NCBI GenBank assembly: GCA_032027045.1
Contig: JAVSMU010000001.1
Span: 2,120,039-2,184,038 of the forward strand
Direction of reading: 5' to 3'
DNA from: Truepera sp.
GTDB lineage: Bacteria; Deinococcota; Deinococci; Deinococcales; Trueperaceae
Length of the DNA stretch: 64,000 bases
Shown: positions 658 through 7,487 of the stretch, piece after piece
Position numbering within the stretch: the stretch's first letter is position 1
How the letters are laid out: every line of letters starts with the position of its first letter
Position numbers and translations under genes: made by a program
Notes under the pieces: generated by a model
Seen by the model: only the letters and a program-made list of their open reading frames with translations
What the model was told of the DNA's origin: nothing
The model's database searches: none

Positions 658-1059
658 CTGATCACCACGTAGCCTTCTATTGAGAAACGTGGTGAACCCC
701 ACCTCAGACGACATCGTCTATCTTGGAGTGAACCTCTCTGTTACTCGAACTGCGCTCGCGTTCATCGAGGCCCGCAATCTACTAATGGCAGACCTCGGCG
801 ACTTCACGCACGATCCCGTTCTCACGCTTGAAGCCTCACCCCTTGCAGCTACTCTACGTCGTTCACGACGCTGAGCACGAGGACGGTGCTTTTCAGTCGC
901 GAGCGCTCGAGGGCGACCCGGCCGGTTAGTGATCTTCTTTCGTCGGGCTGGCGTTCGACAACGCATAGGCACTTTGGGGTGTTGCCGGAATCGTGTTGTG
1001 TGCCTGACGCGGTTCTTGGGGTTGGTTGGGGCTTCGGGGAGGACGCTGATGGCGATGCG
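658..1059. other. Non-coding accessory segment before the transposase remnant
   Basis: No gene is supported. A 64-codon frame at 680-874 has no recognisable family, signal sequence or ribosome site. From about 890 the sequence leads into the decayed transposase, whose normal N-terminal half is not recognisable in any frame, so this segment may be deletion scar. Confidence 0.4.
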
Positions 1060-2126
1060 GTCGACGATGAGGTGGAGTCCGGCGACGACGCCTATGCTGG
1101 CTTGCGTAAGCGTGGCTACAGCAAGGACAGCCGCAGCGATTTGGCGCAGGCGGTGCTCGGTTTCGCCGTGACCAGGGATGGCATTCCCGTGCGGTGTTGG
1201 GTGTGGCCCGGCAACACGGTGGACGTGAGCGTCGTTGAGGAAGTGAAGCGTGACCTGAACGACTGGAAGCTGGGCAGGGTCATGATGGTGATGGACACGG
1301 GTTTCAACAGCACCGAGAACCGCCGCACCCTGCAGGGCGCTGGCGACGCTTTCATCCTGGGCGAGAAGATGCGCTTAGGGAGAGACGTCACCCTGCCCCA
1401 GGCCCTGACTAGAGCCGGACGTTACAAGACCCTGGCTAACGGCCTCAAGGTCGAGGAGGTCATCATCAACCAGGGCAGCGTCGCCAGCCGGCGCTTCGTG
1501 GTGGTGCATAACCCGGAGCAAGCCGAACGCGAGCGGGCAAGCGAGCCGACATCATCGCCGAGGCGGAGCGCAGCTTGGCCGCGCTGGGTGACCTGAGCGG
1601 CAAGAGTCACACCAAGGCGGTTTGCGACCTTAAGGCGCACAAGGTGTTCGGGCGTTACCTGCGGGAACTCAAGAGCGGCGCCCTGAAGCTCGACAAGGCC
1701 AAGATCGATGCCGAAGCGAAGGTGGATGGGAAGTACCTGATCAGCACCAGCGACGAGCACCTATCCGTTGAGGACGTGCTGCTGGGTTACAAGCAGCTTG
1801 ACGAGATCGAGAGAGTGAACCGCGACCTGAAGCACACGGTGGATGTGAGACCCGTGTACCACCGCAGGAGCGACCGCATTAAAGCGCACGTGCTGTTGCG
1901 TTGGCTGGCGCTGCTGCTTATAAGGATCGCGGAGAGCGAATCCGGCGAAAGTCGGCATCAGCTCAAGAAGCTCTTTCGGCCATTGTTGGTGGCTGAACAC
2001 GCCACCCAGCACGGAGTCATCAGCCAAACGAACAAGCTCACGATTGAGCAGAAGCGCGTGCTGGACAGGCTTGACCTGAAGACCCCGAAGCATTACCTGG
2101 AGACCTCGACCCCCAAGAAAGCCTGA
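1060..2126 (+). pseudogene. IS1634-type (IS4 superfamily) transposase, truncated and frameshifted
   Basis: Two overlapping frames together give one transposase. The first carries LRKRGYSKDSRSDLAQAVLG, the RDGIPVRCWVWPGNT strand, and VMDTGFNSTENRRTLQGAG (the second acidic residue region), then GEKMRLGRDV; the second frame resumes with KRADIIAEAERSLAAL and continues through DEHLSVEDVLLGYKQLDEIERVNRDLKH to a C-terminal RIKAHVLLRWLALLL motif typical of IS1634 enzymes (the glutamate of DDE lies in this part). The frame changes from one codon phase to the next at about 1531-1541, consistent with loss of one base; there is no slippery run, so programmed frameshifting is unlikely. The N-terminal ~150-200 residues, including the first catalytic Asp, are not seen. 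Terminal inverted repeats were not identified with confidence. The element is most likely dead. Confidence 0.85.
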
Positions 2127-2594: not shown

Positions 2595-2786
2595 TCATTG
2601 CTCGGCCCGCCTGCGAATCTCGTTGTAGACGGCCGCCAACCGGCCGTACAGGTCCAACGGCGCGTTGCCTTGGGCCAAGAACTCCTCCAGTCGCTCGCAC
2701 AGCTTGACCAGTTCTGACAAGGCCAATAGCTCGAGCCTCGGACTTCCCGGGTCCGGCAAGGCTTCTCCCTGGTTCGTGATCGGCAC
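2595..2786 (-). CDS. 63-residue orphan protein with a strong, shared promoter
   Basis: A small protein I do not recognise. It has a polar N-terminus (PITNQGEALPDPGSPR) and then an amphipathic helical part (LELLALSELVKLCERLEEFL and LDLYGRLAAVYNEIRRRAEQ), with no signal peptide and a single Cys. The case for a real gene is regulatory: a GTG start at 2786 is preceded by GAGGAGGAGACCC, and further upstream lie a -10 (TACATT) and paired TTAA boxes. All of this closely matches the promoter of the secreted repeat-protein operon that starts at 7431. It is divergent from the ATPase/BTAD regulator at 2901, so the three transcription units may form one regulatory circuit. Function unknown; a small helical cytoplasmic partner protein is a guess. 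Confidence 0.65.
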   Translation of the reverse strand: MPITNQGEALPDPGSPRLELLALSELVKLCERLEEFLAQGNAPLDLYGRLAAVYNEIRRRAEQ

Positions 2787-2805: not shown

Positions 2806-2839
2806 AATGTAATGCGTCGTGACTTAATCCTGGCTTAAC
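2806..2839 (-). promoter_or_regulatory. PhoB-like direct-repeat promoter of the 63-residue gene
   Basis: Read on the minus strand: GTTAAGCCAGGATTAAG (TTAA repeated at exactly 11 bp), then 11 nt, then TACATT, then 19 nt including GAGGAGGAG, then GTG. The arrangement of an 11-bp direct repeat ending 11 nt before a -10, with no good -35, is that of promoters activated by OmpR/PhoB-family regulators. The same architecture appears at 7454-7487. Confidence 0.6.
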
Positions 2840-2900: not shown

Positions 2901-5624
2901 ATGTTCGACGTAAGACCAGCGACGAACCCGCTTCTCCTTCGGCGTGAGCGACTGCTGGAGCGCCTTCCAGATAGGCCCGGCCACGTCGTTTGGCTCGAGG
3001 CGCCTTACGGGTACGGCAAGAGCGTCTTGGCCGCCCAGTGGGCGCAGACGCTCGAGGACGAGGGATGGCGGGTCGTGTGGCTGTCCTTGGCGGGCCGCGA
3101 GCCCAAGCCAACTATCGCGCAGGCTCTCGAGCTACCCGCCAACGCCCCTTGGGGCGTGATCATCGATGAGCTCTGGCGTTGTCAGACCCTTCTCGTGCTC
3201 GAGGATCTGGACGGCAGCGAGGACCTCTCCTTGGTGTTGGGCCAAGTTGGGGGGCTCATCCTCCTTGCGAGCAGGCAGTCGCTGCCGTATCCGGGGCTGT
3301 TGCGGCTTCGAACCGAACGGCGCCTCACCCAGTTGAGCTCCGACCAATTGGCGTTCACCAAGCAGGAGGCCGCCGAGCTGTTCTCGGACACGCCAGGCGG
3401 CGACGAGGCCTGGCGCCTTACCCACGGTTGGTCGCTGCCCCTGCACTTCGCGGCCTTGACGGGCGACCTACCGCAGCACGCTAGCCTGCTCGAAGGCGTC
3501 AGGCGCAGCGTCAGCGACCGCGCATGGCGCGAGCTTCTCTTCCTCGCCACCGTGGAAGTGCTTCCTAAGTCGGCCGCCGTCGCGGCCACCGGCGACCTCG
3601 TGCGGTCCGGGTTCTTGCAGAACCTCGAGGGCGGCTACAGGCTCCACCCTTTGATGGCCGAGAGTGTCCTTGGCTCGCACCGGGAGCGCGCGGTGGCGGA
3701 ACTCGCGACCCAGGCCGGGCGCCTCGAACCTGCCGTTCGCGCGGCCGCTTTCGAACGAGTGGGTGATGTTGACGGCCTCGCACAGTTGCTGGCAAGCGGC
3801 GAGGGAGGGTTGTATCAGAGCGCGCCGGAGGAGTTCTTGCGTTGGGAAACCGCAACGCCGAGCGACAACGGCCTCCAGCGGCGCGCGCACGTAACCATCG
3901 CGCGGCTCGTCCTCAACCAGTTCGAGCCCGCGGCAGCCGATGCCCTTGAGCTCGTGGCGGAAGAGGGTCTTCCGACGAGGCTACGCGCTCGGCTCGTCTC
4001 CAACGCCATCTCTAGGCTAGCGGCCGCGAAACGCTTAGAAGTGGCCGCAGCCTTCGAGAAGAAGGCCTACGAGCTGCTGAACGACATCGAGCCGCTAGAG
4101 GCTGCTTCCATGCTGCGGAACCTGGCGACTCTCGATTTCGTGCGCGGCGACTTCGCTCAGATGGAGGCTCGGCTGCGTGCCGGTCTCGGTTTCCTGGCGA
4201 ACAGCGAGGCCGGTCAGGCGACGACGAATGTGGAGTTCAGGCTGCGCGCCAACCTGAACCTCCTGGCCTGGGAGGTTCGCGGGGAGATCGATGAACCATT
4301 GGCCTCCCAGCTGGAACTCCTGTCACGGCCGGACCTGGACGACACCGCCAATGTGATGTTGCGGCAGAACCTCGCTGTCAGTTACGCGCTCAAGGGCGAG
4401 GAGGACAAGGCCCTCGAGCAACTGCGGATTGCGAGCGGCAGTGCCTCGACCTACTCGCGGCTTCTCTTGCGCCAGATGACCGCCTACTTCGAGGGCGACC
4501 TACAAGCCTTCCCCGGCCTGCTTACGGCGGCGCGGCGCTGGGAGACCTTCGAGATGAGCGAGCGAGTCAGCGCCCTGTGGCTGCGCGCCCTGAGGCGCGC
4601 GGGCGACCCCGTCACTGCCTTCGACCTCCTAGACGTCCTCGAGATCGGTCCATTCACGAAACTCGAGCTGGTCTGGGCGGAGGTGAACAGGGGCGGCCTG
4701 GAGCGCGCCCGTCAGCTCGTCGCCGAGACCCGCGGCGCCTACCCGTACCGTGAGTTCCAACTCCACTGGCACGCCGCCAACTACCTGGTAGAGCGCACGC
4801 CGGAGGCGCTCGAGGCCCTGTTCGCCCTGACGCGCAACGGCACCGACGCGCTGCGGTACACGATGGTGCCGCTCTCGACGTTGCCGCAAGACCGCCCGGA
4901 GCTGTCCGTCGGTTACCCGCTCGAACAAGTGCTGGCGGCCGGCTGGGAGGCGGCGGTGAAGCTGCGCCTGGCCGAGATCCCGCCGCTCGAGGTGCGCCTG
5001 CTGGGTGAGGTGCGCGTGACCAGGATGGGTGAGGATCTGCAGCTCACCGATCGCCAGCGCGAGCTCATCACGCTCCTGGCCCTAGGTGCGACCAGGGAGG
5101 CGATCGGCGAGGAGATGTGGCCCGAGGCCGACGTCAAGAAGCAGCGCAACAACCTCGGGGTCCAGCTGAACCTCCTTCGCAAGCTGCTCGAACCCTGGGG
5201 GGTCACCACGTTCCTTGGCGAGAGGAGCCTCAGGCACTTCCGGACCGACCTCCAGGAGCTCGAAGACGCCATAGACGCCGCCGATGCCCCGCGGGTACTG
5301 AACATGTATGAAGAACCGCTCGCCCCGGGCGTGGAGGTCGGCCTCGTAGCCGATCAGCGCTACGACCTCCGCGAACGCGTCGTGCAGGCGCTACTCTCTG
5401 CCGCACTCACGACCGCGAACGACGGCGCGCTGAGTTACCTCAAACGTGTCATGGAACTGGAGCCCCTCCACGAGGAGGCGCTTCAGGCCCTGCTCGTCAT
5501 CCTTCAGGGCATGGGCAGGCGCGGGGAAGCCCTGAAACAGTTCCGGAGGTTCGAGGAGCAGTTGAACCAGGAGACCGGTCTGGCTCCCCACCCCAAGACG
5601 GTCTCACTGGCATCTTCCGGTTGA
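2901..5624 (+). CDS. ATPase-TPR-BTAD (SARP-related) transcriptional regulator
   Basis: A 907-residue cytoplasmic regulator built like MalT/AfsR-type signal-transduction ATPases. Residues 30-41 (VWLEAPYGYGKS) form the Walker A loop and TLLVLEDLD near 96-104 is Walker B. A long helical-repeat middle region follows. From about residue 693 there is a winged-helix domain (LEVRLLGEVRVTRMGEDLQLTDRQRELITLLAL, landmark only), continuing with QRNNLGVQLNLLRKLLEPWG, and a bacterial transcriptional activation (BTAD) helical domain to the end (LERVMELEPLHEEALQALL-type repeats). In Streptomyces AfsR the DNA-binding/BTAD part is N-terminal; here it is C-terminal. AGGGAGACG precedes the ATG at 2901. It is divergent from the 63-residue gene and its end lies 8 bp from the end of the secreted-protein operon, so regulation of those neighbours is plausible but unproven. 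Confidence 0.85.
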   Translation: MFDVRPATNPLLLRRERLLERLPDRPGHVVWLEAPYGYGKSVLAAQWAQTLEDEGWRVVWLSLAGREPKPTIAQALELPANAPWGVIIDELWRCQTLLVLEDLDGSEDLSLVLGQVGGLILLASRQSLPYPGLLRLRTERRLTQLSSDQLAFTKQEAAELFSDTPGGDEAWRLTHGWSLPLHFAALTGDLPQHASLLEGVRRSVSDRAWRELLFLATVEVLPKSAAVAATGDLVRSGFLQNLEGGYRLHPLMAESVLGSHRERAVAELATQAGRLEPAVRAAAFERVGDVDGLAQLLASGEGGLYQSAPEEFLRWETATPSDNGLQRRAHVTIARLVLNQFEPAAADALELVAEEGLPTRLRARLVSNAISRLAAAKRLEVAAAFEKKAYELLNDIEPLEAASMLRNLATLDFVRGDFAQMEARLRAGLGFLANSEAGQATTNVEFRLRANLNLLAWEVRGEIDEPLASQLELLSRPDLDDTANVMLRQNLAVSYALKGEEDKALEQLRIASGSASTYSRLLLRQMTAYFEGDLQAFPGLLTAARRWETFEMSERVSALWLRALRRAGDPVTAFDLLDVLEIGPFTKLELVWAEVNRGGLERARQLVAETRGAYPYREFQLHWHAANYLVERTPEALEALFALTRNGTDALRYTMVPLSTLPQDRPELSVGYPLEQVLAAGWEAAVKLRLAEIPPLEVRLLGEVRVTRMGEDLQLTDRQRELITLLALGATREAIGEEMWPEADVKKQRNNLGVQLNLLRKLLEPWGVTTFLGERSLRHFRTDLQELEDAIDAADAPRVLNMYEEPLAPGVEVGLVADQRYDLRERVVQALLSAALTTANDGALSYLKRVMELEPLHEEALQALLVILQGMGRRGEALKQFRRFEEQLNQETGLAPHPKTVSLASSG

Positions 5625-5632
5625 CCTGGCAC

Positions 5633-6436
5633 CTACTGCACTTCGGAGTATGGCGTGAAGGTCCCGTCCACCTCGATCTGGTACCACGTGTTCTGGCTCG
5701 GATCGAAGACCAGGGGGAGGCCGGCGGGGGTCTGGTAGTAGGTGCCCTGACTGGGAGCGAACGGCAAGTAGTAACTCGTGCCGGTGTTCGGGTCGCCGTA
5801 CTCCCCGACCCCCTGAATGGCGCCACGCACGTAAGCGTCGTGGGAGGCCTGTTGGGAGTCCTGCATGCTCATCCAAGCACCGAAGGACTGATCGTTGGCG
5901 GCGGACTGGGCCTGGACGCCGGCCATGAAGGCATCGAAGTTCCCTTGCTGCGCCTCCATGCTGGCCTTGGAGCCCTGGGCGGCTAGCTGGCAGTCGAGCG
6001 GGTATCGCTGGCAATGGATGTACTTGCCCCACTCGAGAGCGTAAGCGTCGGGCGAGCTCATGTCACCGGTGGTAGTGCGGTAGAGGTCGATGAAGTACTT
6101 GTTGTACTGCGCTATCTGGGCATCGATCTGCTGTCCCATCTGGTCCATCTGCCCCATGTAGTAGTTCTGCCCGGCCAACAAGTCGGCCATGATCTGGCCC
6201 ACTTCGCCTGCGGCGTTCCCGCCGTAACTCGGATAGAACCCCTGGCCCGCGGGGTAACCGTAGCTCATACCCAGATTCGGATCGTACTGGTACCCCTCCG
6301 TGGGCGGTACGTACGGGTACCCCATCGGATAACCCATGGGGTAGCCGTACGGGTATGACTGCGCGGTGGCCGCTGTGAGCAGTAACGCGGCCACTATGGC
6401 CCTCGAGACCTCGAGTGTGCGCCCGGCGAGCCCCAT
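5633..6436 (-). CDS. Secreted Tyr/Gly/Pro-rich protein (second gene of pair)
   Basis: A 267-residue exported protein of unknown function. An N-terminal hydrophobic segment ending LLLTAATAQS looks like a cleavable signal peptide. It is followed by a low-complexity stretch of YPYGYP/MGYP repeats (about residues 28-70), then a helical middle (MADLLAGQNYYMGQMDQMGQ and a Met/Gln-rich region) and a C-terminal part rich in aromatic residues (TSYYLPFAPSQGTYYQTPAG). It begins 5 nt after the stop of the upstream Gln/Pro-rich protein gene, so translation is probably coupled. Both are exported, Gln/Tyr-rich and lack enzyme motifs, suggesting a surface or matrix structure; that is inference. A convergent regulator gene ends 8 bp away. 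Confidence 0.75.
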   Translation of the reverse strand: MGLAGRTLEVSRAIVAALLLTAATAQSYPYGYPMGYPMGYPYVPPTEGYQYDPNLGMSYGYPAGQGFYPSYGGNAAGEVGQIMADLLAGQNYYMGQMDQMGQQIDAQIAQYNKYFIDLYRTTTGDMSSPDAYALEWGKYIHCQRYPLDCQLAAQGSKASMEAQQGNFDAFMAGVQAQSAANDQSFGAWMSMQDSQQASHDAYVRGAIQGVGEYGDPNTGTSYYLPFAPSQGTYYQTPAGLPLVFDPSQNTWYQIEVDGTFTPYSEVQ

Positions 6437-6441
6437 GATTC

Positions 6442-7431
6442 TCAGAGGCCGCCCGCGAACTGCAATTCGTACTCGCTGTCTCCAACGTAGAGGATGGCCC
6501 CGGGGCCAACCCGGTCCGCCCAGAACTCGTACTGGTAGCCTTCGGCCATGAAGGCTCCATGCAGCGTCTGCTCATCGAGGTGGGCCTGGAACTGGTACTG
6601 CTGGCCCTGGTACTGCAGGTAACCCGTGTACGCTCCCTGCGAGCCCTGGACCATGAGGCTTATGCCGGAAGTATTGCCCACGAACCGCCCGTTCCAATCG
6701 GTGGGCGCTTGCGGTGCCGTGGCACCGGGCCCCTGAGGGTAAACGGGCGGGTAAACAGGCTGCTGACCACCCGGCGCCTGCGGGAAACCAGGCTGCTGAC
6801 CAATCGGTGCTTGCGGGTAACCGGGTTGCTGACCACCCGGCATCTGCGGGTAACCGGATTGCTGACCACCCGGCATCTGCGGGTAACCGGGCTGCTGACC
6901 AATCGGTGCTTGCGGGTAACCGGGCTGCTGACCACCCGGCATCTGCGGGTAACCGGACGGCTGCCCGCCCGGCATCTGCGGCGGGGGCGTGTTCGTGGGC
7001 ACGGCCCCTGCCGGCGGCGGCGGCCAGCCGGCCATTCCATCCGGACCCGGAACTCCCCCGGCAGCACCCCCCGGGTTGCCGCCAGCCTGACGCCGAAGCG
7101 TAAGTGCCTGACCCTGACCAACGGGCTGCCCGTTGGCATCCATCTGGTAGAAGGCCAGCTGCAGAGTCTGCCCGTCCTGGCTCAGTTGCCCCTGAAACCC
7201 TAGAATGCCCTGCTGCGACTGGACCACGCCGGCAGCGAACAGTTGCTGCGTGTTCCCTTGCAGGGGCCACTGGCCGCTGGGGCCTACGAGCACGCCCTGC
7301 AGGGAGCCGTCCGGTGCCTGCTGCAGGTTGATCGTCACGCCGTTGGCCGGATCGGCGAAGCTGCCACTGAACTGCTGGGCGAGGGCCACCTGAACGAGCA
7401 GTAACGCCACCATGGATGCGTACCTGAACAC
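6442..7431 (-). CDS. Secreted Gln/Pro-rich repeat protein with duplicated domain
   Basis: A 329-residue exported protein. I place the start at GTG 7431 because AAGGAGGAGACC lies directly upstream and the following VFRYASMVALLLVQVALAQ is a clean signal peptide; a start 13 codons earlier would put polar residues ahead of it. After the signal come a beta-rich domain (FSGSFADPANGVTINLQQ...), a Gly/Pro linker, six to seven 11-residue repeats of the form PGGQQPGYPQM/PIGQQPGYPQA, and a second beta-rich domain (WNGRFVGNTSGISLMVQGSQ...). The two beta-rich domains share the pattern GxF, IxLxxQ, GxLxxxGQ, LxGxF, suggesting internal duplication. No enzyme motif is seen. It is first in a two-gene operon under the PhoB-like promoter at 7454-7487. 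A cell-surface or matrix role is a guess. Confidence 0.78.
   Translation of the reverse strand: MFRYASMVALLLVQVALAQQFSGSFADPANGVTINLQQAPDGSLQGVLVGPSGQWPLQGNTQQLFAAGVVQSQQGILGFQGQLSQDGQTLQLAFYQMDANGQPVGQGQALTLRRQAGGNPGGAAGGVPGPDGMAGWPPPPAGAVPTNTPPPQMPGGQPSGYPQMPGGQQPGYPQAPIGQQPGYPQMPGGQQSGYPQMPGGQQPGYPQAPIGQQPGFPQAPGGQQPVYPPVYPQGPGATAPQAPTDWNGRFVGNTSGISLMVQGSQGAYTGYLQYQGQQYQFQAHLDEQTLHGAFMAEGYQYEFWADRVGPGAILYVGDSEYELQFAGGL
6759..6975 (-). repeat. 33-bp in-frame tandem repeats (PGYPQ repeats)
   Basis: Six full units and a partial one start at 6759, 6792, 6825, 6858, 6891, 6924 and 6957. Each encodes 11 residues. Units alternate between two versions (PGGQQPGYPQM and PIGQQPGYPQA), giving a 66-bp higher-order repeat that suggests duplication by unequal exchange. 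This is coding repeat, not a CRISPR array. Confidence 0.9.
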
Positions 7432-7453: not shown

Positions 7454-7487
7454 AGATTAGAGGGCGGCACATTAATTCTGATTTAAC
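7454..7487 (-). promoter_or_regulatory. PhoB-like direct-repeat promoter of the secreted-protein operon
   Basis: Read on the minus strand: GTTAAATCAGAATTAAT (TTAA repeated at 11 bp), 11 nt, TAATCT as -10, then 22 nt containing AAGGAGGAGACC before GTG 7431. The box agrees with the one at 2824-2839 in 13 of 16 positions, with the same repeat-to--10 distance. In such GC-rich DNA these A/T-rich repeats stand out. Confidence 0.6.

Follow-up and report, generated by a model that had tools for sequence, protein, structure and literature searches.

The locus described here raises the question of what two neighbouring genes for exported, repeat-rich proteins have to do with the large regulator encoded beside them. 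The window, a stretch of 64,000 nucleotides, corresponds to positions 2,120,039-2,184,038 of a 2.92-Mb Truepera genome assembled in a single contig. Both genes lie on its minus strand, PA at 6442..7431 and PB at 5633..6436, with PB downstream of PA and an intergenic gap of 5 bp. The initial annotation had placed the two reading frames here and described their N-termini as exported-looking, and we could reproduce both points. PA starts with GTG at 7431, preceded by a good ribosome-binding site (AAGGAGGAGACC), and ends at 6442. The N-termini of PA and PB (MFRYASMVALLLVQVALAQQ and RAIVAALLLTAATAQS, respectively) resemble signal peptides, as judged by inspection and a crude rule only.

PA is a 329-aa protein with a linker rich in Pro, Gly, Gln and Tyr. 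The alternating 11-residue repeats noticed earlier in this linker were confirmed by Tandem Repeats Finder at 6747..6981 (minus strand), where 7.1 copies of a 33-bp unit scored 295 and 2.4 copies of a 99-bp alternating unit gave the better fit with a score of 386. These repeats vary among the PA relatives, which are about 50% identical and were found in four genomes of the same genus. The AlphaFold model, calculated from a four-sequence alignment, predicts the two beta-rich domains that had been proposed to flank the linker, with eight strands each, at residues 22-114 and 248-327, while the linker (residues 117-241) is predicted with low confidence or as disordered. The predicted up-and-down topology of the domains resembles that of avidin and fatty-acid-binding (calycin-like) barrels, and Foldseek pointed, with low TM-scores, to avidins, fatty-acid-binding proteins and C-terminal barrels of PBP-like proteins. 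The best PDB match reached E = 0.018 and none reached E<=0.001. PA also differs from the avidin/calycin barrels in showing no evidence of a ligand site, and we treat the similarity as a hint about the fold only. One strong PDB sequence match of PA, an ARID-domain protein, was discounted since its alignment covers the low-complexity linker.

PB (267 aa) has a YP-rich N-terminus, a helical region with a cysteine pair and a conserved C-terminal segment. Besides this segment, the alignment shows conservation of YFIDLYR.TTGD..SPD and of IHCQ.P.DCQ, and the cysteine pair is conserved. The predicted model of PB was too poor for use (pLDDT 48.7). PB is present in 7 of 101 relatives, all within two genera of Trueperaceae (Deinococcota). 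Neither protein matched a family in Pfam or NCBIfam, in agreement with the earlier statement that no family could be recognised, and no homologue among known enzymes or housekeeping proteins turned up. The plasmid records contained no match to PA.

Tail-to-tail with PB lies the gene for a 907-aa regulator (2901..5624, plus strand), which had been described as a large ATPase/BTAD protein. The sequence agrees with this description, firmly for BTAD and probably for the ATPase. The C-terminal BTAD domain is clear (Pfam PF03704, E=6.3e-10, 40 bits against a cut-off of 22.1), and nSTAND_NTPase5 was found slightly under its curated cut-off (E=9e-8, 32.6 bits against 34), with a GYGK segment that is invariant across seven relatives. 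The front part of the protein matches MalT (PDB 8bob, E=1.8e-9), and the NCBIfam MalT model gave 35.9 bits at the N-terminus, far under its equivalog cut-off of 537 bits. Towards the C-terminus, positions 693-902 match AfsR by profile (E=0.0018), and the match to the Pfam domain Trans_reg_C, the winged helix expected before a BTAD domain, stays under its cut-off (E=0.087).

SARP/BTAD activators are known mainly as switches of antibiotic clusters in Streptomyces. The regulator shares with AfsR and the large SARPs of that genus a BTAD domain, accompanied by a probable OmpR-type HTH and by probable NTPase and TPR-like parts. It differs from them in its order, since the NTPase comes first and the HTH-BTAD last, and the N-terminal HTH-BTAD of the Streptomyces SARPs is absent. 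Its N-terminal region also resembles the NTPase of the MalT/LAL group of STAND activators, but its predicted DNA-binding part is of the OmpR/BTAD type and not LuxR-type. Judged by sequence, it represents a variant of the known STAND and BTAD activators in which the domain order is reversed. AfsR is known to bind as a side-by-side dimer and to be modulated by ATP as well as by its own NOD and TPR parts, while SARP promoters contain direct repeats 11 bp apart that overlap the -35 region, the 3' repeat lying 8 bp from the -10 element (PMC10936776).

Several STAND/BTAD proteins are encoded in the same genome. One of them (locus L139 6308-8500, G000:C1:1345307-1347499) is again large and combines TPRs with a BTAD domain at its C-terminus (E=4.5e-18); it lies near a lipoprotein gene whose site, of the type described below, is at 1,343,125. 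Just upstream of the 907-aa regulator and the orphan gene, at window positions 886-2126, two overlapping frames of 236 and 183 aa encode a transposase, which is probably a frameshifted insertion element.

The orphan gene (2595..2786, minus strand) is divergent from the regulator and encodes a 63-aa protein without a signal peptide and without a match in Pfam. Its homologues in four genomes of the same genus are 71-84 aa long, each behind a TTAA-N7-TTAA promoter site, and the gene is retained in all five genomes of the genus that carry this regulator.

Seven loci, from six genomes, show the regulator in tail-to-tail arrangement with genes of the PA/PB type. G002, G003 and G005 have the arrangement with PB-PA and regulators that are about 57% identical; the partner is PB with a piece of PA in G022, and PA, placed by its position, in G006. 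A paralogous regulator in the genome studied here stands tail-to-tail with a 397-aa PA/PB fusion. The same genome encodes a PA-like protein of 490 aa and, about 13.6 kb upstream, a second pair, PA'-PB' (L006 5258-6907, G000:C1:2112257-2113906). PA' is 53% identical to PA and has its own TTAA-N7-TTAA promoter; a TAG truncates PB', which suggests that one of the two copies is decaying. Linkage to PA/PB is scattered over the regulator tree, in which many other members adjoin different lipoproteins or exported proteins. We rejected a single clade of PA/PB-linked regulators, as the tree needs four changes. PA-type beta domains occur in 28 of 61 relatives, many of them inside other exported-looking proteins of the order. 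Regulator, orphan and exported pair had been proposed to form a linked system. The linkage recurs in relatives, where its absence would have refuted the idea, and together with the promoter motif this recurrence strongly supports it, but the beta domain of PA is not unique to the pair.

The promoter type that was said to be common to PA and the orphan gene proved to be the most informative part of the locus. Comparison of upstream regions revealed TTAA-N7-TTAA-N12-TAnnnT in front of PA, PA', a fusion gene in G004 and the orphan gene. The putative promoter/operator of PA-PB (TTAAATCAGAATTAATGTGCCGCCCTCTAATCT, 7454..7486, minus strand) has two TTAA 11 bp apart followed by the -10 element TAATCT, and that of the orphan gene (TTAAGCCAGGATTAAGTCACGACGCATTACATT, 2806..2838, minus strand) has the same layout. 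In G004, the 33-bp promoter precedes both the PA-fusion and the PA gene. Counted in heptamers, the distance to the -10 element is 9 bp at N12 sites and 8 bp at N11 sites, and neither TTAA of a site can serve as a normally spaced -35. The candidate target promoters look like those of afsS and the SARPs, with two direct repeats 11 bp apart near the -10 and no good -35, although their half-site is TTAAG.

By pattern search, TTAA-N7-TTAA occurs in 10 places in the genome, against 0 for the reversed-pattern control. Over spacings of 1-22, the same searches gave 19 TTAA pairs, 10 with spacing 7 and 9 with the other 21 spacings together (Poisson 4e-11). Four of the ten sites precede PA, PA', the orphan gene and the PA/PB fusion, the last of which has no clear -10 at the expected distance. 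Another precedes the PA-like 490-aa protein. Four stand before lipoproteins, namely an SBBP propeller, an NHL/SGL propeller, a Big_7 protein and a 626-aa protein without a Pfam match, and the tenth, at 2,822,374, before a possible exported protein of uncertain start.

The five genomes of the genus that carry the regulator have 22 strict N12 sites, and every one of them lies before either a gene called exported (17) or the orphan gene (5); two of these five orphan genes were assigned by position and alignment where the longest-ORF choice of the script took another frame. Export was called by a crude rule, which about 35% of ordinary genes satisfy too; family-wide, the gene behind 19 of 27 strict sites tested was called exported (p=2e-4). 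This p value is conservative because orphan sites were scored as failures. The family-wide calls include one glmM that is probably wrongly called exported, and one exported gene in G036 was missed by the longest-ORF choice. The consensus of the 22 genus sites is TTAAG-N6-TTAAG-N11-TAnnnT, in which only the G after each TTAA (14/22) and the T before the second repeat (13/22) are new information, since TTAA, TA and the final T were set by the search. The inner 7 bp and the flanks vary between sites, with the TTAA pairs and their spacing constant.

Around 33 regulator loci, a gap of 12 was found at 26 sites when at most one mismatch was allowed in the two TTAA, compared with 0-3 sites for each other gap from 6 to 18. 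When all 16 A/T tetramers were compared at these loci, the count of exported genes preceded was 21 (at 18 loci) for TTAA and 0-5 for the others. These counts are not an independent test, since the set includes near-duplicate loci and several loci in which the motif had originally been noticed. In two genomes that had not been used before (G065 and G074) a site lies beside the regulator, and several regulators elsewhere in the order have a site before the adjoining exported gene. G035 and G110 have the regulator and no site, and Thermus-like genomes have no site adjacent to it. G001, of the same genus, lacks the regulator, PA, PB and the site alike. Within Trueperaceae, the regulator and strict sites co-occur (7/8 against 1/23, p=2e-5); the co-occurrence was not significant in the other families of the order that were sampled.

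Some related observations were made along the way. Large lipoproteins of 579-813 aa (L140 4097-5977, L193, L195-L197, L199 and L127 8620-10980) share the N-terminal pattern G.V.LP.G..LDL..LTV.T..G, and all have the promoter or lie beside a regulator; the two that were scanned had no Pfam match. G017 and G025 carry many N11-spaced TTAAG repeats, several before lipoproteins, and 7 nt upstream of a glmM-like gene they have a similar repeat (L206 and L208). The repeats of these two genomes are probably read by another OmpR-type factor. In three loci of Thermus-like genomes (L233, L240 and L245), an exported protein of 266-271 aa and a divergent ORF of 462-466 aa are separated by a TTAAC-type site. 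This ORF has no Pfam match and looks by eye like a regulator with an N-terminal HTH, and the two genes are possibly a sister regulatory pair.

From this comparison of sequences, we think it probable that a large-SARP-like activator of the STAND type drives a regulon of surface proteins and lipoproteins, with the PA-PB operon as its neighbour-linked output. By homology, the 907-aa regulator would sense a signal through its MalT-like NTPase and its TPR-like part. Once active, its C-terminal OmpR-HTH/BTAD domains would occupy the two TTAAG half-sites, 11 bp from each other, as neighbours and, as in AfsR, might bring RNA polymerase to promoters with a -10 element that lack a -35 at the canonical spacing. 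Judging by the sites observed, its outputs would be PA-PB, the small protein divergent from the regulator, and scattered lipoproteins and exported beta proteins. The small protein is perhaps a feedback partner; AfsR likewise has the small protein AfsS as a target, but the parallel is an analogy only. We infer that the pair would work in the envelope or extracellularly. PA would contribute two beta barrels connected by a flexible linker, and PB would be helical, with a beta tail and a conserved pair of cysteines. Unlike SARP targets, the candidate targets are exported proteins and not antibiotic clusters, and the host belongs to Deinococcota. The same type of promoter appears to link related regulators of the order to other exported proteins.

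The assignment of the sites to this regulator is suggested by adjacency, co-occurrence and the class of the protein. Other factors of the OmpR family, response regulators included, likewise use TTAA-type direct repeats with an 11-bp period, so the reader of TTAA-N7-TTAA could be a response regulator of the PhoB/PhoP type or some other OmpR-family factor that acts in envelope stress, with the STAND-BTAD protein as a co-located bystander. N11-spaced TTAAG repeats and TTAAC/TTCAG variants occur in genomes without this regulator, for example G025, and were for that reason left out of the regulon. Other BTAD-type regulators lie near other sites, as at L139. We nevertheless consider such a reader unlikely: the sites adjoin STAND-BTAD regulators in several lineages, G001 has no site although it presumably has ordinary response regulators, and the site in Thermus-like genomes lies between an exported gene and another regulator-like ORF, for which Pfam gave no match. 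Very improbable, in our view, is that the shared promoter is an ancestral upstream region copied along with gene duplication and not a functional operator. The second, decaying pair upstream would fit such copying, but the element also precedes unrelated lipoproteins in this genome and in relatives (SBBP and NHL/SGL propellers, Big_7 and large ones without a Pfam match), and the TTAA pairs and spacing persist while the sequence within and around them changes.

A different question is whether PA-PB forms an adhesive, S-layer or matrix structure, its repeats giving length or cohesion and its regulation being incidental. This would be compatible with the regulon. The Pro/Gly/Gln/Tyr-rich linker, the two beta domains and the export signals speak for it, but the argument is one of composition, the linker repeats differ among relatives and no structural or family match was found. 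We regard it as possible but doubtful, and a structural or adhesive role of PA-PB remains a guess. The best reading of the sequences is that PA and PB are envelope proteins induced within a surface-protein regulon.

Searches of titles and abstracts, mainly in the open-access literature, returned no published account of such a regulon in Deinococcota, and the regulon, its operator code and the PA/PB families are apparently undescribed in the open literature searched. More broadly, the STAND-BTAD branch of the Truepera/Thermus order may be a dedicated surface-remodelling system, with one operator code (TTAAG-N6-TTAAG and a -10), exported targets nearby and elsewhere, a small partner protein in one genus, and PA/PB families largely confined to it; we hold this tentatively, with slightly less than even confidence. 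A SARP/BTAD relative with reversed domain order appears to control surface proteins in a deep and little-studied phylum. The promoter code is precise enough to predict the regulon from sequence, every strict site of the genus being accounted for. Genomes of Thermaceae also carry related regulators and sites, so cultured relatives may offer a test of the operator code. The locus offers a testable set of regulator, operator and targets, a promoter-based search for surface proteins of Deinococcota, and two new protein families.
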